From NCBI RefSeq assembly GCF_001548055.1, contig NZ_AP014724.1, forward strand, positions 1,240,001 through 1,304,000: 64,000 nucleotides of DNA, given 5' to 3'. Positions 38,291 through 56,410 of the stretch are shown here, piece after piece (positions within the stretch are counted from its first letter, which is position 1; each line of letters begins with the position of its first letter). The translations under genes were made by a program, and so were the position numbers. The DNA comes from Sulfurospirillum cavolei (GTDB lineage: Bacteria > Campylobacterota > Campylobacteria > Campylobacterales > Sulfurospirillaceae). The notes beneath the pieces were generated by a model. That model was given only the letters and a program-made list of their open reading frames with translations, did not search any database and was not told where the DNA came from.

Positions 38291-39001
38291 TTAGAGGATT
38301 AAGCTTGAAAACACGCCGATAATCGCGCCGAAAACGCCGCCCCATACGACCAGCCAACCCAAATGTTCTTTAATAAAATCTTGAACGATTTCTTTGACCA
38401 TTCGCGGCGTCAGCTCATTAAGGCGCGCATCGACCATCTTTTCTATGGTGATTAACATGTCATCACTTAGTGATGAATTTTGTATTTTTTTAGATATTTT
38501 TTGTTGAAATACATCACTTTTAACGATTTCATTGAGCGAGATTTTGAGCTTTTCGTTAAACGGAGCACGCAGTCCTTCCAATGCGCTTGCTCCTCCGAAC
38601 ATCGCCAACATCCCGCCGAAAGAGGACTCCATGACGGTTTTACTGAGCGCGTCAAAGGCCAAAGAGGTGTCTATCTCATCGATGATAGAGCCAAGATCGA
38701 GCGTTTTTTCTTCGTGTGCAAAGAATGCGTCGAGTTGTGTTTTGGTAAAAAACTGTTCCATCATCAGGTTTTTAATCGATGCTTTAAAGGCTTCAAAACG
38801 TAATTCTATGACGCCGCTTCCGTAAAAAAAAGGTACTTTTTCAAAAAGCATATGAATGGCAATTTGATTGGTAATCGCGCCCGAAAGGGCAAAAAGTCCC
38901 GCTAAAAGTAGCCAATGCGCGAAGGGTTCGCTTAAAACGTAAGAGAGTGCTACCAATCCAAGGCTTATCAGATCGGTCATAAAGCTTTTATCGTATTTCA
39001 T
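38291..39001 (-). CDS. DUF445 family membrane protein
   Basis: A 236-residue protein. The N-terminal half has two hydrophobic stretches with the family motif GAITNQIAIHMLFEKV, the middle is helical and charged, and the C-terminus is a membrane helix (LGWLVVWGGVFGAIIGVFSSLIL). DUF445/YheB-like proteins have no established function. The start at 39001 is supported by AAAGGAGAAACG; the frame to 39028 overlaps the radical SAM gene. Confidence 0.8.
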   Translation of the reverse strand: MKYDKSFMTDLISLGLVALSYVLSEPFAHWLLLAGLFALSGAITNQIAIHMLFEKVPFFYGSGVIELRFEAFKASIKNLMMEQFFTKTQLDAFFAHEEKTLDLGSIIDEIDTSLAFDALSKTVMESSFGGMLAMFGGASALEGLRAPFNEKLKISLNEIVKSDVFQQKISKKIQNSSLSDDMLITIEKMVDARLNELTPRMVKEIVQDFIKEHLGWLVVWGGVFGAIIGVFSSLIL

Positions 39002-39011
39002 CGTTTCTCCT

Positions 39012-40529
39012 TTACACTGCGTTTGCATGTTTTAATTGTCGTTTGTTAACTTTGATCGTGTTCTCTTCACTTTCGTCTCGCGGTACGTAGTTGTCACGCA
39101 AAAAAGAAGGCATTTTGCGTCCGCGAACGGTCATAATATCTTCGATGAGCTGCGCTTTGATTCTTTCTTTTTCATAGCCTTGCTCCTCGCAAAGATAACG
39201 AAAAACCAGTTCCGCCAAACGGTCCAAGGCAATTTGCCATGTAGATTCGGTTTGGGTGTAGAGCCATTCGCTAAAGGCGTAAAAGCCTTCAAACACCTGC
39301 CCCTCTTTCCATAAAAGCTCACACGAGCGTTTAAAATTGCCGCTGTTATACACCATATCCCAAAAACGTGCAAATCGTTTCATTTTTTGCATCAGCGCAA
39401 ACGGGATTAGATCGTTTTGCACAATATCGTACGGAGGTTTGTCCGAATAAACCATGCCGTAGATTTCGTCGTGACGCGAGAGCGTCGTACCGGAAAGTTT
39501 TTTTAAAATACCGATTTGAATTTCGCATTGCGTCAGGGCATGGAGTCGGTTTAAATTGCGCCCGAATCCCTCGATACTTTCTCCGGGTAACCCCACGATC
39601 AAATCGACATGTAAGTGTGCATGGGTTTCATTCTGTAAGAAAGCGAGATTTTCTTCGATTTTTTCCACATTGAGGCGTCGATGAATATTTTGGGAGATGT
39701 TCGGATCAAGCGTTTGAATTCCGACTTCAAGCTGCAAAGCCGCCGGAGGAAACTGAGCAATTTTTTCACGCAGGGCTTTGGGAAAATGATCGGGAATAAC
39801 CTCAAAATGGACAAAATATTCCTCTTTTTTGGAGAGAAAAAAGTCTAAAAGTTGTGTTGCGTTCTCAATACTTAAATTAAACGTTCGATCGATAAATTTG
39901 AAATTGCGCACGCCTCGTTGCCATAATTTTTCGAGCTCGCCTAAAAAGCGTTCCATCGGAATGTCGCGTACTTTTTTATCTGCCGAAGAGAGACAAAACT
40001 CACATGTAAAGGGACAACCGCGACTCGCTTCTACGTAACAGTAACGATGTTTGACGTCATGATCGCTGTAAAAATCGTAGGGTAAAACAATCGTACTTAA
40101 ATCGACCATCGGTGCTTTTATGAAACGTTCTTCGGGTAAATCGTCGTTTAAAAGCCTTCGGCACAATGCGTAAAAAGCATTTTCTCCTTCGCCTTGAATG
40201 ATATAATCGGCTTTGGAAAAATCGACGCGATGCGGCAGATGTGACGCTTCGGGACCGCCTAAGATAATAAACGTCTTCGGCGATACTTTTTTCAAAAGTG
40301 CCGTCAGTTCTTGCACTTCAAGCGCATTCCAAATATACGCACCGATACCGACGATGCGCGGTTGATGTGCAAGTATGTGCTCCGCGACGTCCGCGACGCT
40401 TGTATTGATGACGCTCTCTAAAATCAAAGCTTGGGCTTGAAGTTCGCGTAAATTGGCGTACAAATAACGCATAGCAATCGACGTATGCGTGTAGCGGGCG
40501 TTAAAGGTCGTTAAAATAATTTCTTTCAT
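39012..40529 (-). CDS. B12-binding domain radical SAM protein (DUF4080-type)
   Basis: A 505-residue enzyme. The N-terminal cobalamin-binding-type Rossmann domain (about 1-140, with VGIGAYIWNALEV and IILGGPEASH) precedes the radical SAM core with the cluster motif CPFTCEFC in EASRGCPFTCEFCLSS (CxxxCxxC). A C-terminal DUF4080-like domain follows. Substrate unknown; such proteins often act as methyltransferases or in tRNA/secondary metabolism. Many Campylobacterota carry a copy. It slightly overlaps the frame of the DUF445 gene region. Confidence 0.85.
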   Translation of the reverse strand: MKEIILTTFNARYTHTSIAMRYLYANLRELQAQALILESVINTSVADVAEHILAHQPRIVGIGAYIWNALEVQELTALLKKVSPKTFIILGGPEASHLPHRVDFSKADYIIQGEGENAFYALCRRLLNDDLPEERFIKAPMVDLSTIVLPYDFYSDHDVKHRYCYVEASRGCPFTCEFCLSSADKKVRDIPMERFLGELEKLWQRGVRNFKFIDRTFNLSIENATQLLDFFLSKKEEYFVHFEVIPDHFPKALREKIAQFPPAALQLEVGIQTLDPNISQNIHRRLNVEKIEENLAFLQNETHAHLHVDLIVGLPGESIEGFGRNLNRLHALTQCEIQIGILKKLSGTTLSRHDEIYGMVYSDKPPYDIVQNDLIPFALMQKMKRFARFWDMVYNSGNFKRSCELLWKEGQVFEGFYAFSEWLYTQTESTWQIALDRLAELVFRYLCEEQGYEKERIKAQLIEDIMTVRGRKMPSFLRDNYVPRDESEENTIKVNKRQLKHANAV

Positions 40530-40746: not shown

Positions 40747-42867
40747 TTAAAATTCACTTTCACGAATAAGAACAGAGAGTACTTTTTTGTAAACTTTCGT
40801 GATCAAGCTTGACGATTCGCCCTCGACTAACAATGTCCCAACACTTCGATTTCGCAACCGTATATTGCTTTCGTTTAAATCAATGATGATTTTATAATAA
40901 GCTTGTTCGGTTTTGAGACGTTTATTGCCGTCTTGCCGCGTAGCGATTTTTCCGCCGAATACGGAGGCTAATTCGGGAAATTCTAAATACGGACTTGATA
41001 CTTTGGCTATCTCGTTTACGCTTGCATGAATATCTTTTCTATCGCCGGAGTGAAAGAAAAACGTACTTTTGGCACTGTTTTTAAGGAACGCCATGTCGTA
41101 TTCGTTGCAAAAAGCGGTAATGCGATGGTCCGTGTCGTCGTATAGCACAAAAATCGGTTTAGTTTTACTGACCCATTGATTTTCTTTGAACGTATCGTAA
41201 AGATAGACTTTCCCGTCGAAATTTGCTCTGACGTCAAATTTTTGTCGGATTTTTTCTAAACCTTCCAATTCGTTTAGGCTTTTGAGTAGGCTCTCTTGCA
41301 AGACAAAACGTTTGTCCAAGCTCTCTTTAAAACCGGCTTGTTTGTCCAGTTCTTGCTTGAGTTGCTCGATTTGCGTCTTCACTTGGGTGATCTTGAACTC
41401 CAGTTCCGATGAACGTATTTTCATCAAAAGATCGCCTTGTTTAACTTCCGCTCCATTCGTAAAGAAGATGCTTTCAATGTAGCCGTCTTCAATCGGATAA
41501 AATTCAAAATAGTGCTTTGATTCGATCACGGCAGGCATCTTGATCGTGCCATGCCACGGAAGAAAAATCGCCGCTAAAAGAAGTAAAAACACGAACAGTG
41601 AACGGCGGTTTTTTCGATTGAACGTAAGTTCGCCTCGTTTCTTCCACCAGACGTTGAACTCTTTGTAAATCGGTAAAAGGATAAACCATGCGACTTCAAC
41701 CGCAAAGAGAATAATACCCAAAGCTTTAAACGCAAAATAGTACACTAATGCGGCGATTCCGGCAAATAAAAAGAAGCGGTATATCCATGTCGCAATCGCA
41801 TAAACGATAAAAAATACTTCGCGCTTTTTCGTCAAAAGTTCGGGTTTTTCTTGCTCTAACCCTAAAATATGATGACGCAAAAACCACTTCGCCATCGCAA
41901 AAGAGCGCGGCTGTAAATTTTGCGTATCGGTTAAGTCTGCAAGGGCGTAGTATCCGTCAAAACGCAAAAAAGGACTGATATTGATGAGCAAAGAGCTGGT
42001 CCAACTGGTTGTTGCAATGATAAATAAAATACTTTTAAAAACACCGATCGGTGCAAACGACCATAAAAACGTCGCAATCAATGCCAAATAAAGCTCGACT
42101 TTAATGCCCGCTAGAACGATTTGCAAACGCTGGTAGTTAGACTTTAACTTCCAAGCACTGGTCGTATCGGTGTATAAAACGGGGAAAAGCACTAAGAACG
42201 CAACGCCCATCGTGGGGACTTTGCACCCAAAACGTTTTGCGCTAAAGGCATGTCCTAATTCGTGAAAGCTTTTAACGAACACCAAAGAGAGAAAATAATA
42301 AACAGCACCCTCTTGCGAGAAAAAATAGAGAAACGTTGAACTAAACGTCGTCCAGTCTCTTAAGATAAAAATGATGCCGATAAAGCCTAGAATTAAAACA
42401 ATGTTTTGCCAGAGCTTAGAGTATAAAAAATCAATGCGATGTAGATTGTCATCCAACCAACGATCGGGTTTTACCAACGGGATTCGAATAAACAGGTAGT
42501 TATGCAAAAGCCATTTAAGCAACGTTTGTCTGGATTGTTTATACATCGCTTTGATGCGATGCAAAGACTTCGCGTCTTCACAAACGATCAAGTTGTTTTG
42601 GCTTAAAAATTCGATAAAGGTCTGCAAGGATTCCGCATCGATCGCGTAGTTTTTCTCTTCTAAGGTTTTTAAAAATTCTGCGGTCGTGATGCCGCTTTGC
42701 CAATGTGAAATCAGCTCAAATGCATCAATACCGATCGTGAAATACTTGTTTTGAATGGGGTCAAACAGTAACCAGCGTTTGGAACCGTCTTCAGCCGAAG
42801 AGGTATCCAAAAGCTTTAAATCGTTTCGTAACGGCGGTAGAAGCGGTTCTTGCGTCTGTGGAAGCAT
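40747..42867 (-). CDS. PqqD-like / M50 metalloprotease / HlyD fusion membrane protein
   Basis: About 706 residues (711 if it starts at ATG 42882); residue numbers here follow the 711-residue form. Residues about 22-100 resemble PqqD/RRE leader-peptide-binding domains (KRWLLFDPIQNKYFTI, then AFELISHWQSG). A membrane core of roughly eight helices contains the zinc site HELGH (H207, E208, H211) and NISPFLRFDGYY with Asp309 as likely third ligand, as in M50 intramembrane proteases. After the last helix (about 429-442) comes a HlyD-like arm with a lipoyl half-motif, a coiled coil and a beta-barrel. It is the last gene of the adhesin operon. The start at 42867 forms a TAATG with the preceding gene. 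It may be a protease, a non-proteolytic receptor or an export component. Confidence 0.8.
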   Translation of the reverse strand: MLPQTQEPLLPPLRNDLKLLDTSSAEDGSKRWLLFDPIQNKYFTIGIDAFELISHWQSGITTAEFLKTLEEKNYAIDAESLQTFIEFLSQNNLIVCEDAKSLHRIKAMYKQSRQTLLKWLLHNYLFIRIPLVKPDRWLDDNLHRIDFLYSKLWQNIVLILGFIGIIFILRDWTTFSSTFLYFFSQEGAVYYFLSLVFVKSFHELGHAFSAKRFGCKVPTMGVAFLVLFPVLYTDTTSAWKLKSNYQRLQIVLAGIKVELYLALIATFLWSFAPIGVFKSILFIIATTSWTSSLLINISPFLRFDGYYALADLTDTQNLQPRSFAMAKWFLRHHILGLEQEKPELLTKKREVFFIVYAIATWIYRFFLFAGIAALVYYFAFKALGIILFAVEVAWFILLPIYKEFNVWWKKRGELTFNRKNRRSLFVFLLLLAAIFLPWHGTIKMPAVIESKHYFEFYPIEDGYIESIFFTNGAEVKQGDLLMKIRSSELEFKITQVKTQIEQLKQELDKQAGFKESLDKRFVLQESLLKSLNELEGLEKIRQKFDVRANFDGKVYLYDTFKENQWVSKTKPIFVLYDDTDHRITAFCNEYDMAFLKNSAKSTFFFHSGDRKDIHASVNEIAKVSSPYLEFPELASVFGGKIATRQDGNKRLKTEQAYYKIIIDLNESNIRLRNRSVGTLLVEGESSSLITKVYKKVLSVLIRESEF

Positions 42868-44213
42868 TACCAGCCGATCCATTGCCTAACGGCGGTGATG
42901 GGTTTTCGAAAAAGGTAAAAAAAGAGCGTTACGTTGTGCGAATAGATTTTTGCCGTACCGCGAAGTCCGATAGAGGGAATGTACCCGTTTTCTTGAATAT
43001 CGTCAAAATCCGCGACGATACGATACGACAAAATATTTTGTTCGGTGAGTTCGGGCTTGTAGGAGATGTATTTGATTTTGGCATTCCACGCGTTAATCGG
43101 ATCGTTGTCAAAAAACGCTTTGACGGAGGCATTTTCTTCAAGGAAAAGAGCATCGTTGACGGGTAACATCATTTTGAGCTCTATTTTACGAGCATCGGCA
43201 ATCAAAAAGATACGCTCACCCGTTGCGACGGGTTTTCCTTTCCAATCATTCGGATTGGTAATAATCGCAACCCCCTCCTCTTTGGCGAAGATAGAGGTTT
43301 TATCCAACTGGTCTTTGGCATGCGCGAGCTCGGCTTCTTTGAGTTTGACATGGTTTTCAAGCTGCGCAATTTGGCTTTTTTGTTTCGGATCGAAAAAACT
43401 GCTTTGTCTGGCGGTAAACAATTCGGCATTGCTCACATCAAGCGTTCGTTTGGCAACCAAATAGTTGTTATTAAAATCGACGTCGTCAAACTTGACGACC
43501 AATTGATCTTTTGTTACCTTTTCGTTGGGAAACACCTTGACCTCTTCAATGACCGCATTAAGAGGCGACGTCACCACGTAAGGATTTTTGGCATCGACTT
43601 CCAGCGGTGCTAAAACAGAGAGCTTTACCGGCATAAACATCAGAACTAGAAGCGTTAATGCCGCTATTTTGACGTATTTATTGCGAAACGAGATATTTTT
43701 AAACGTTTGGAAAAGAGCGCATTTACGCATTGCAAATAAAAAGTAGGCTAATGACGAAGAGAGATGTTGACACAAGGCAACGTCATTTTCGCTCCACGGC
43801 TCTTCTTTAAATAACAGTAACATGTAACGGGTTTGCTTTTGCTCTTTCTCGCAATGAAGCGGTATTGTTAAAAGGTGTGGAGGCGCAAATTCGTGAAAAG
43901 ATTTGGCGTTAATCTCTTTTAAATCGCGTGACGCATCGACGCTAAAAATCTCTTTCGCTTTTGCGTTGTGACGAATATCTTCGGCAATCTCTTCGATCCA
44001 TTGAACGTAAGGTGAAGTTGCGTCCATAATGGCAATATCGGAGATTGCCACAACACGGTATTTTTCTCTTAAATCTGTCGTGAGTAAAACCCCTTGCGTA
44101 TAGGATACGAGGTTTCGCGTTTCGTTGACAACTTGAAAATAGAGCTCTTTTAAGGTTTCACAACTCCTACAGTTATGTTCTAACTGTAGGAGTTTTGCTA
44201 AAGTCGGTTCCAA
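42867..44213 (-). CDS. GAF-like / HlyD-family membrane-fusion protein
   Basis: 448 residues. The N-terminal cytoplasmic region (about 1-165) begins KLLQLEHNCRSCETLKELYFQ and looks like a GAF domain. One membrane helix (about 181-200) and a HlyD-like periplasmic adaptor (lipoyl VTSPLNAVIEEVKVFPNEKV, hairpin 255-305, beta-barrel) follow. A cytoplasmic sensory domain on an adaptor is unusual; it could bind the substrate N-terminus, a nucleotide or another export part. The start is TTG at 44213 with AAGAGAGAGA upstream. A 14-bp hairpin lies inside codons 7-17. Confidence 0.78.
   Translation of the reverse strand: MEPTLAKLLQLEHNCRSCETLKELYFQVVNETRNLVSYTQGVLLTTDLREKYRVVAISDIAIMDATSPYVQWIEEIAEDIRHNAKAKEIFSVDASRDLKEINAKSFHEFAPPHLLTIPLHCEKEQKQTRYMLLLFKEEPWSENDVALCQHLSSSLAYFLFAMRKCALFQTFKNISFRNKYVKIAALTLLVLMFMPVKLSVLAPLEVDAKNPYVVTSPLNAVIEEVKVFPNEKVTKDQLVVKFDDVDFNNNYLVAKRTLDVSNAELFTARQSSFFDPKQKSQIAQLENHVKLKEAELAHAKDQLDKTSIFAKEEGVAIITNPNDWKGKPVATGERIFLIADARKIELKMMLPVNDALFLEENASVKAFFDNDPINAWNAKIKYISYKPELTEQNILSYRIVADFDDIQENGYIPSIGLRGTAKIYSHNVTLFFYLFRKPITAVRQWIGW
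44162..44194 (-). other. Perfect 14-bp-stem hairpin in the 5' end of the GAF/HlyD gene
   Basis: AACTCCTACAGTTA (44162-44175) and TAACTGTAGGAGTT (44181-44194) pair perfectly over 14 bp with a 5-nt loop. It lies 33-65 nt downstream of the adhesin stop codon and 20-52 nt into the coding frame. No U-tract follows. It could attenuate transcription, mark an RNase site or limit ribosome movement, so that the giant protein is made in excess over the membrane proteins (inference). Confidence 0.7.
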
Positions 44214-53572: not shown

Positions 53573-55465
53573 TTATTTAGCACTAACCCTGTTTTTTTCA
53601 ACGAGCCATGGATTTTCAGACACGATCCATGATGGAGAAACTCCCGCTTCTTCGGCAATTTTAGGAAGGCTATCACCCTCTTTGACGCTATACGGTTTTG
53701 CGTTGACCGTTAGCTTGTCACCGGGGTAAAGAAGCACTTTTGCCGTTCTGAAATTCATCGTTGAAAAGCGATTTTCTTCTTTTTGGAGTGTTGCTTTTTG
53801 CGGCACTTCAACAGCTTGTGTTTCTTTCACTTCCGGCATAACGACAGGTGTTACATGTAACGTTTCCTCTTTCGTTTCGGCGACGGGTTTAGCTTCAACG
53901 ATAGGAGCTTGCGTCTCTTGAACTTCCGGCACGACGACAGGCGTTACATGTAGCTTTTCTTCCGGAACTTCCGCGACGGGTTTTACTTCCTCAACGGGGG
54001 CTTGTACCGCTTGAATCGGTTCCATGTTTGGCGTTTCAAGAGCTTTTTCATCTACACCCAAAGAGGCAAAGATTTTTCCGTAACCGTTTTGAACATTCGC
54101 ATACGCCGCCGAGTAACGCAACGTCGCCAAGATATTATTGAGTTTCTCTTTGATGAGAATCAAACGACTGTTAACATTAACGGAATTTTCAACTTCCGTG
54201 AGACGGTAAATATCATCGGCAACCGTGAGATACTCTTTGGCTAAGAGGTACTCTTTTTTTGCTTGGTTGAAGTTAACGATGGAGAGATGCACTTGAGAGA
54301 GTACCGCCATCGATAGAGCAAGTTTTTGCTCTTTTGCCACTTCGATTTGAGTTTTTGCCAACTTATTATACGAGCTTGCTTTAAAGACGTTCAAAAGATT
54401 CCATGAGACATTCGCACCGTAAGAGTACCAGTCGTTGTTGAGCAAATAATCGCTATTGTCGTAAGATAAGGAAGCACTAAGATTAACCCCCGGTAACATT
54501 TTAAGCTTAGCGGCGGTTAACTCTTTTTCCGAGATGCGCTCTTGGTATCTGCTCTCTGTCAACTCAGGACGATTTTCCAAAGCGATCTCTTCCATTTGAT
54601 CAAGACTGAGATGCATTTGAGGAATCTCATAGTTTTTTTCAACTTTATCGGCTAACTCAAACTCGGTTCCCGGTTTAAGCCCCATGAGTTCCGAAAGCTC
54701 GACTTTGGCTGAAATAAGACCGCTTTCTAAAGTATGAAGCGATCGTAAAATGTCGAGCAATTCGCGTTGATACGCTAAAGCTTCCATCGGCGTTTTGGAA
54801 ACGCGTTGGTCTTGAACCGCTTTAGAATCGTTAAGGGCTTGTTTCACTTCGACCATCATCGGTTGAATGCGTTTGAGCAGATCTTGTGCGGAGACGGCTT
54901 GATAGTAAGCTCTTCTGATCTCTTGGGTCAACGTATGCTCGATCTTTTTCTCTTTTTCTTTGGCGATTAAAAATTTATCGGCTTGTTGCTCCGCTCTAAC
55001 GTAAGACAAACCGAAATCAAGAATATTCCAACTAAAGGTAACGTCGGTGGTCGATCTCTCTTTTTCTTGGGAGATGGAGTACGTATTGTTCAACGGTTGG
55101 GGTTTTCCGTTGGTAAAAGAAGCACTTTGGCTCGCCGCATAGTTATTGCGTTCGGAATATCCCGCCGCCGCGGTCAAACTCGGCAACATGTCATAATAAA
55201 CTAAATCAAGTTGTTGTTCGGAGAGAGCCGATTCTAAAACTTTGACACGCTTTTGAAGATTGTGGTTGATACCGCGATAAATTGCCTCATCCAGCGTAAT
55301 GGGTTTTGTGACCGGCAAAGCCGCTTCGCTGAGCGTCGATAAATCCTTCTTAACTTGCGCTTTGACGTCTTCTTGAAGCATCGGTTGCGGTGCAACGGAA
55401 CAACCCGTAATGACAACCGAAGCGGCTATGGACAGAACAACGTTTTTAGACACTTGTTTTAGCAT
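53573..55465 (-). CDS. TolC-family outer-membrane lipoprotein with C-terminal LysM
   Basis: 630 residues. The lipobox VVITGC puts the lipidated Cys at residue 22. The OEP/TolC body (about 40-470) has two repeated helical halves (for example EIRRAYYQAVSAQDLLKRIQ). A Pro/Val/Glu-rich region (about 483-545) carries two 31-residue repeats. The C-terminus (about 590-630) is a LysM-like domain, YSVKEGDSLPKIAEEAGVS, expected to bind peptidoglycan. Start ATG 55465 has AAAGGTG upstream; the GTG at 55474 is part of that site. First gene of the adhesin operon. Channel for export; the LysM tail is unusual for TolC proteins. Confidence 0.85.
   Translation of the reverse strand: MLKQVSKNVVLSIAASVVITGCSVAPQPMLQEDVKAQVKKDLSTLSEAALPVTKPITLDEAIYRGINHNLQKRVKVLESALSEQQLDLVYYDMLPSLTAAAGYSERNNYAASQSASFTNGKPQPLNNTYSISQEKERSTTDVTFSWNILDFGLSYVRAEQQADKFLIAKEKEKKIEHTLTQEIRRAYYQAVSAQDLLKRIQPMMVEVKQALNDSKAVQDQRVSKTPMEALAYQRELLDILRSLHTLESGLISAKVELSELMGLKPGTEFELADKVEKNYEIPQMHLSLDQMEEIALENRPELTESRYQERISEKELTAAKLKMLPGVNLSASLSYDNSDYLLNNDWYSYGANVSWNLLNVFKASSYNKLAKTQIEVAKEQKLALSMAVLSQVHLSIVNFNQAKKEYLLAKEYLTVADDIYRLTEVENSVNVNSRLILIKEKLNNILATLRYSAAYANVQNGYGKIFASLGVDEKALETPNMEPIQAVQAPVEEVKPVAEVPEEKLHVTPVVVPEVQETQAPIVEAKPVAETKEETLHVTPVVMPEVKETQAVEVPQKATLQKEENRFSTMNFRTAKVLLYPGDKLTVNAKPYSVKEGDSLPKIAEEAGVSPSWIVSENPWLVEKNRVSAK
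53829..54014 (-). repeat. Tandem 93-bp repeat in the TolC-like gene
   Basis: Two consecutive imperfect copies (53829-53921 and 53922-54014) encode LHVTPVVMPEVKETQ and LHVTPVVVPEVQETQ, followed by VEAKPVAETKEE and VEEVKPVAEVPEE. Each copy is 31 residues. This linker between the channel and the LysM domain may vary in length between strains. Confidence 0.7.
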
Positions 55466-55735: not shown

Positions 55736-56410
55736 ATGAAACGATTAGCGGATAAAAATTTACTACTTTTAGAAGACAACGTCGAATTTATCGATAACGC
55801 CGTCTCTTTATTTGAGATGTTCGTCGCGCGTGTTTATGTCGCACATACGATTAAAGAGGCTTATGAACTTTTTGAGAAAGAACGCATCGATATTATTATT
55901 TCGGATATTCACCTGAAAAATGAAAACGGGCTCGATTTTATCAAAGAGTTGCGAAAAAGTAACGACAGTGTTCCTGTTTTAATTCTGAGCGGTCATAAAG
56001 ACGAAGAATTCCTCTTCAAAGCGATGACCTTAAATCTCAGCGGCTATCTTTTAAAACCGATTAATTTTAAAATGTTGGTTGACGGACTTCAAGAATGCAT
56101 TAAAAAAATGGAAGCAAGTTCGCAGACGATCGTTACGCTTAAAGACGGTTTTTGTTACGATAAAGCACTGAAAAACGTTACGAAAAATAACGTTACGTTT
56201 GAGCTGAATAAAAAAGAGATTCTCTTTTTTGAAATGCTCTGCCAGCATAAAAATACGATTTTGACGCGCGACATGTTTTTAGCTTACGTTTATGAGTACG
56301 AACCGATGAGTGAAAGTGCGCTTAATAATTTTATTATGCGCATACGAAGACGTTTCGGAAAAACGTTTTTACATACGATTCCGGACGTCGGCTACAAGTT
56401 GATCGTATGA
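55736..56410 (+). CDS. OmpR-family response regulator
   Basis: 224 residues. The receiver domain (about 8-120) has the acidic pair in LLLEDN, phospho-acceptor Asp in IIISDIHLKNENG, and Lys in YLLKPI. The winged-helix DNA-binding domain (about 135-224) ends RRRFGKTFLHTIPDVGYKLIV. The sensor kinase gene overlaps it (stop TGA inside ATGATG). Divergent from the adhesin operon and convergent toward ttrA, so either could be its target. Confidence 0.92.
   Translation: MKRLADKNLLLLEDNVEFIDNAVSLFEMFVARVYVAHTIKEAYELFEKERIDIIISDIHLKNENGLDFIKELRKSNDSVPVLILSGHKDEEFLFKAMTLNLSGYLLKPINFKMLVDGLQECIKKMEASSQTIVTLKDGFCYDKALKNVTKNNVTFELNKKEILFFEMLCQHKNTILTRDMFLAYVYEYEPMSESALNNFIMRIRRRFGKTFLHTIPDVGYKLIV

Follow-up and report, generated by a model that had tools for sequence, protein, structure and literature searches.

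The channel gene and its operon

The window (the whole 64,000-nucleotide stretch of DNA analysed here) belongs to a Sulfurospirillum cavolei genome of 2.7 Mb in a single contig. It carries an operon encoding a TolC/OEP-family lipoprotein (the channel), a short adaptor, a giant surface protein (the passenger), an HlyD-type adaptor (HlyD448) and an M50/HlyD fusion protein, beside a divergent response regulator gene (Table 1). The initial annotation had read the first of these genes as a TolC-type lipoprotein, and its coordinates, strand and lipobox were all recovered here. The TolC body was likewise confirmed by Pfam OEP (PF02321), which matches the protein in two stretches with 132.2 bits (cut-off 22; E 2.6e-38), and a lipobox-like motif is present in 37 of 40 scanned rows, a count that includes duplicates and fragments. 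The channel is a member of the broad TolC/OEP family and of neither named NCBIfam subfamily, scoring under the cut-offs of both type_I_sec_TolC (40.1 against 225.15 bits) and outer_NodT (35.8 against 210.05 bits).

Table 1. Features of the channel gene, its operon and the neighbouring regulator gene, in window coordinates.
Feature	Position	Strand	Basis or remark
TolC/OEP-family outer-membrane lipoprotein, 630 aa	53573..55465	-	ATG at 55465, stop at 53573
Lipobox I-T-G-C (Cys22)	55400..55411	-	Motif scan
OEP (TolC-fold) body, residues 23-474	54044..55399	-	Pfam OEP
Glu/Val/Pro-rich linker, residues 475-566	53768..54043	-	Composition and dN/dS
Two tandem 31-aa (93-nt) units, residues 488-549	53819..54004	-	TRF phases them from 53813
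LysM-like C-terminal domain, residues 567-630 (Pfam core 592-616)	53576..53767	-	Pfam, tail profile, dN/dS
Short periplasmic adaptor (RND-type MFP), 243 aa	52836..53567	-	TIGR01730 112.1 bits, cut-off 94.9; adjoins TolC in relatives' loci
Passenger: giant DUF4347 / cadherin-like / Ig-like surface protein, 2863 aa	44227..52818	-	Domain matches
HlyD-type adaptor, 448 aa (HlyD448); N-terminal region of ~180 residues, one hydrophobic segment	42867..44213	-	
M50 (HELGH) intramembrane protease fused to HlyD-type adaptor, 711 aa	40747..42882	-	
Divergent response regulator	55736..56410	+	Homologue (56-94% identity) beside TolC in 8/17 relatives' loci, some stretches cut

The channel shares with the TolC/OprM outer-membrane factors the OEP body and the lipobox, and differs from them in ~155 extra residues that include a module of wall-binding type; SilC, the solved relative that a sequence search brought up, aligns with just a part of the body. 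Long tails are not common on the TolCs of this genome, in which eleven OEP ORFs were found: the channel frame has 641 aa and the ten others only 396-479 aa.

No ABC transporter was found among the operon genes scanned with Pfam and NCBIfam. With no ABC exporter of its own among them, the operon does not qualify as a canonical type I system; the genome has four ABC_membrane genes at other places, and a distant exporter is possible. The passenger presented no match to an RTX family at E values up to 10, RTX repeats being absent from some type I substrates, and no match to a beta-barrel family; it is encoded by a gene separate from that of the channel. LEPR-XLL (NF012209) matches residues 12-29 of the passenger with 11.9 bits (cut-off 17), and a related motif is visible there. 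A C-type-lectin match inside the protein reaches 21.6 bits, just under the cut-off of 22.6, and one in the passenger of a relative (L026) lies above it at 28.4 bits. As in type I secretion of giant adhesins (LapA/BapA, and BapP in PMC12153261), a giant repetitive surface protein is found beside adaptor or TolC-type parts; the window operon differs from these systems in presenting an M50/HlyD fusion instead of an ABC transporter among its scanned genes, and in the lack of an RTX match.

The segment at 40747-44213 encodes the HlyD-type adaptor and the M50/HlyD fusion with no ABC gene. The M50 protease part is similar to RiPP maturation proteases, scoring 140.1 bits with the daptide family (below the cut-off of 300). 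For the M50 and HlyD448 proteins, Pfam gave no accepted family in the N-terminal parts, which may be RRE/PqqD-like and GAF-like. Directly downstream of the operon (38291-40529), B12-binding radical-SAM and DUF445 genes are common to the window and its nearest relative, Sulfurospirillum sp. UBA4058 (G025), a member of the same genus with a 90% match over the whole channel protein; the remaining fetched stretches, a number of them truncated, had no match to these genes.

The linker and the LysM-like tail

The two 31-residue repeats reported in the initial annotation lie side by side in the linker as degenerate units, identical at 23 of 31 aa and 68 of 93 nt; the pair has a TRF score of 223, and none of 20,000 linker shuffles reached 23 matches (best 13). 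The accompanying suggestion that this repeat could change copy number fared less well. The presence of two units in the window and of one, recognisable by eye, in UBA4058, where a repeat-family search found none, lends it weak support, but the units are 27% diverged in DNA, with 10 synonymous and 8 non-synonymous codon differences, which marks the pair as an ancient duplication and not an actively slipping switch. Copy-number switching was rejected, there being just two degenerate units here and a single recognisable one in UBA4058.

A LysM-like C-terminus, which would help to moor the channel to peptidoglycan, had also been proposed. The LysM family (PF01476) matches the whole protein with 17.7 bits (E 0.0036), under the curated cut-off of 20.9, and the match spans positions 1-27 of 43, leaving the canonical last strand unmatched; both observations count against a mooring role. 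Scanned alone, the tail reaches 25.1 bits (E 1.7e-5), and in a LysM-family scan of the whole genome it is the third-best of six matches (19.4 bits, under the cut-off). Searched against the PDB, a profile built from nine homologous tails ranked LysM proteins first: LytE (1.7e-7, a sum over three stretches that are each weak alone, best 0.58), YaaH (6.9e-6; best single stretch 0.035) and MltD (0.0026; single stretch 0.0037). With the window and UBA4058 removed from the profile, the window tail scored 63.8 bits, compared to 8.6 for the best of 2000 shuffles. The score of the tail alone and the ranking of LysM structures favour the LysM-like assignment, with the whole-protein score below the cut-off. 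A fold model of the tail from two sequences was of low confidence (mean pLDDT 66.6), with two short strands (fragment residues 24-27 and 30-33) ahead of the first helix and no significant match in fold comparison; the full-length TolC model, also from two sequences, had a mean pLDDT of 35, too poor to place the tail.

Against UBA4058, the window's LysM domain is under the same constraint as its body (61/64 and 431/452 aa identical, respectively, both with a dN/dS of 0.03), while the linker drifts (33/72 aa identical, dN/dS 0.23). Four sister-genus pairs gave dN/dS values of 0.10-0.42 for the LysM domain, 0.10-0.16 for the body and 0.57-2.45 for the linker, whose alignments are unsure; in the comparison of the window with L026 and L028, some dS values were not estimable. 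The dN/dS values reject the view of the tail as a decaying leftover.

The tail profile also yielded long matches in RTX giant proteins of two other genomes (G115, E 2.5e-11; G120, 4.6e-9) and, in G329, in a short ORF that borders a contig end (8.6e-9), and 13 of 298 genomes present any match at E ≤ 1e-4. The G115 protein fragment has Pfam matches to RTX and LysM, and the neighbours of the G120 RTX gene are, by eye, adaptor-like, transporter-like and TolC-like ORFs. In the RTX giants at L126:8000-15580 and L127:4420-10545, the same extended LysM subtype is found at about residue 260-270, and in L126 it follows a glycine-rich hydrophobic stretch. The occurrence of this subtype in RTX giant proteins places the module in further systems of exported proteins and means that wall binding is not its sole conceivable role; the module may bind something besides the cell's own wall, which counts against the mooring reading.

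Relatives of the operon and their tails

TolC homologues at E ≤ 1e-30 were found in 3 of 44 genomes of the window's own family and 8 of 397 sampled across the phylum (own genome counted in both), and in 15 of 104 genomes of a second family (f7, possibly Arcobacteraceae). The OEP body of the window is 77-83% identical in amino acids to those of 11 loci of genus g12, in another family, and this identity, together with the patchy spread, suggests transfer. The order TolC, short adaptor, giant protein, HlyD-type adaptor and M50/HlyD is found in 17 relatives' loci, where the sequence reaches, with the exception of G012, in which the passenger lies on the opposite side of TolC; the stretches of G462, G478, G419 and G421 are cut short, and the absence of ABC genes in relatives was judged from gene order. 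In G421 (L034:2120-3409), a 429-aa ORF that looks transposase-like has been inserted into the tolC orthologue and splits it.

This TolC/HlyD operon family without a nearby ABC motor was found in Campylobacterota and on plasmids of Azospirillum, Enterobacterales and Burkholderiales, with TolC in 52 plasmid records (E ≤ 1e-20) and the M50/HlyD protein in 71 (E ≤ 1e-10); Citrobacter is among the plasmid matches listed. The passenger lies upstream of TolC in the annotated plasmids viewed (Kosakonia, Azospirillum, E. coli). On an Escherichia coli plasmid (L049:4482-24233), TolC, adaptor, HlyD and M50/HlyD genes lie beside a 13.4-kb Ig-like gene. A more distant branch was mapped in G357, a second G336 locus, G587, G382 and G578. 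In a second branch, distant from that of the window (L069, L070, L071, L072), a 603-626-aa protein precedes an M50/HlyD protein that is 24-26% identical to that of the window.

Different modules occupy the place of the tail in these relatives. Among 18 loci from the window's taxonomic order (the window, two more of its own family and 15 of f7), nine have a LysM-type tail, four an SH3_3-like tail and five no tail module, the last counting against the mooring reading. Two of the six relatives' LysM-type tails that were scanned pass the Pfam cut-off of 20.9 (L024, 21.0 bits; L026, 23.7), and four fall under it (L031, 20.8; L028, 19.9; L036, 17.6; L025, 14.0), which again counts against that reading. 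Of the SH3_3-like tails, those of L033 and L038 pass the cut-off of 27 (34.2 and 40.3 bits), that of L035 lies just under it (26.2) and that of L037 well under (18.6). Three Azospirillum plasmid orthologues end in a SPOR tail, one by Pfam (29.4 bits, cut-off 21) and two by sequence, and in a fourth (A. ramasamyi, L076:2990-3600) a body 94-96% identical is followed by a stop and then by a frame-broken remnant of the SPOR tail that its close relatives retain. SH3_3 and SPOR are classes associated with wall binding. The plasmid copies without SPOR have short tails, Pro/Ala-rich tails or, in E. coli and Hafnia, a different tail of ~120 aa, which in E. coli matches no accepted Pfam family and reads alike in Hafnia. 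No wall module was seen by eye in 17 of 20 plasmid loci, Pfam having been run on three of the 20, and this too counts against mooring; a plasmid search with the window's tail as query returned no match.

Association of the tail with the passenger

The link of the tail to an adhesin made in the initial annotation gained support from its co-segregation with the passenger and from a switch of both in one clear pair of loci. Across the sister genus, the passengers have their ends in common (N-terminal ~225 and C-terminal ~165 residues) and differ in the middle. The window's passenger class is present in 9/9 LysM loci (the window included) versus 0/4 tail-less loci (13 loci, two genera), and the tail-less G012 is also without it. 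With sampling at 20-residue steps and a minimum identity of 40%, residues 1841-2381 of the window's passenger are covered by matches in all seven LysM relatives besides UBA4058 and in none of seven other loci (four of the sister genus, G012 and two SH3 loci; G462 and G478, whose passengers are cut off, were left out). In shared residues, counts of which are rough in such repeat-rich sequence, the passenger of the SH3-tailed L033 has up to 1243 in common with LysM-class passengers (L028, L034), that of L035 up to 554 (713 on the L034 side), and the tail-less passengers at most 463 with any LysM-class passenger.

The clear pair comprises L026 (LysM) and L030 (tail-less), whose nucleotide identity is 93.3% in the TolC body, 94.7% in the adaptor, 96.3% in M50, 97.7% in the last 1000 nt of HlyD448, and 88.4% and 93.1% in the N- and C-parts of the passenger. 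The next-best relative stands at 82.6-89.5%, apart from the two ends of the passenger, where L034 comes about as near (87.2%, 94.7%). The TolC tail and the passenger middle have been replaced, and the adaptor gene and the passenger N-part between them are conserved; as judged from these alignments, the pair presents a clean co-switch of tail and passenger middle. A single exchange from a distant donor is disfavoured, since the adaptor would have been replaced too; exchange between very close strains is a possible source of the difference. The tail-less L032 is closest to the LysM-tailed L024 in TolC body, HlyD448 and M50, by margins of just 0.9-2.9 points, and in the adaptor L024 is level with L028, which weakly supports a second switch.

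The perfect 9-versus-4 separation has a chance of 1/715 if labels are dealt freely, related loci not being independent. Mapped onto the TolC-body tree, the LysM label requires 5 changes (5-6 across bootstraps), and 144 of 500 shuffles need no more; of the 14 inner branches 8 are open, and those with good support force only one change of tail state, which counts against the mooring reading. With only 13 loci, a poorly resolved tree and related loci that are not independent despite the 1/715, the association could reflect hitchhiking or chance in a small set, the tail having a general role independent of the passenger. We consider this quite unlikely, however, as L030 keeps its sister's adaptor gene between two switched segments.

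The tail could also bind peptidoglycan in order to place or assemble the channel, as a local docking site for the trans-periplasmic complex, and not to hold a loaded adhesin. Two sources lend this some plausibility, wall-anchored secretion parts being known from GspB/OutB in type 2 secretion (PMC9239104) and a pore-making or anchoring role having been proposed for the LysM of intimin (PMC3008723). Nevertheless, machinery at 93-98% identity is without the tail when the passenger middle differs, which indicates that assembly in itself probably does not require the tail, and we regard a docking role as unlikely. The co-switch would likewise be expected if the LysM-like tail bound the passenger, or another exported protein or glycan, rather than the wall, and the same extended LysM subtype does occur in the RTX giants of G115 and G120. 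SH3_3 and SPOR at the same position, however, are most simply explained by a shared wall ligand, making passenger binding improbable.

Taken together, we favour, with a probability of about 0.55, the reading that the tail serves particular giant surface proteins by mooring their exit channel to peptidoglycan. The channel would be the outer-membrane exit of an export operon without an ABC gene, and the fast-evolving, flexible linker after its body would carry a LysM-type module whose most likely ligand is periplasmic peptidoglycan; the known topology of TolC/OprM proteins would place the tail in the periplasm. The channel would be held twice, by its N-terminal lipid and by the wall; this double attachment, proposed in the initial annotation, is backed in part by the LysM match, by purifying selection and by the SH3_3 and SPOR modules at the same place in orthologues, wall binding by the tail itself remaining putative. 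The anchor would be optional for the machinery and matched to the passenger. Its retention with one class of giant protein and absence with others suggests a role in bearing the load of a passenger that remains attached to the channel, or in keeping that passenger in place.

The closest working analogues are the inverse autotransporters YeeJ and intimin, a family of which the channel is not a member. The LysM of YeeJ is reported to bind peptidoglycan and to raise surface display and biofilm (PMC5595812), and intimin likewise has a periplasmic LysM that ties the outer-membrane anchor of an Ig-like adhesin to the wall (PMC3008723). In these proteins, as here, the outer-membrane anchor of a large Ig-like adhesin bears a LysM, and the YeeJ passenger ends in a C-type lectin, of which the window's passenger has its internal, sub-cut-off match. 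In YeeJ and intimin, however, the LysM is N-terminal and in one chain with beta-barrel and passenger, whereas here it is C-terminal on a separate TolC-type channel.

A broader reading, which we hold only tentatively and as rather doubtful, is that the exit channel of an ABC-less, M50-protease/HlyD export system may serve as the permanent mooring of a giant protein, with a wall anchor (LysM, SH3_3, SPOR or none) that is exchangeable and matched to the passenger. Among the matches listed from the open-access literature, the coverage of which is incomplete, we found no report of a TolC with such a tail or of this operon type. The present observations draw attention to a TolC/HlyD operon family without a nearby ABC motor. 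How the attachment of giant adhesins to a thin outer membrane lasts under pull is an open mechanical question and, if the mooring reading is true, near-identical natural operons with and without a passenger-linked wall tether would offer a direct comparison.
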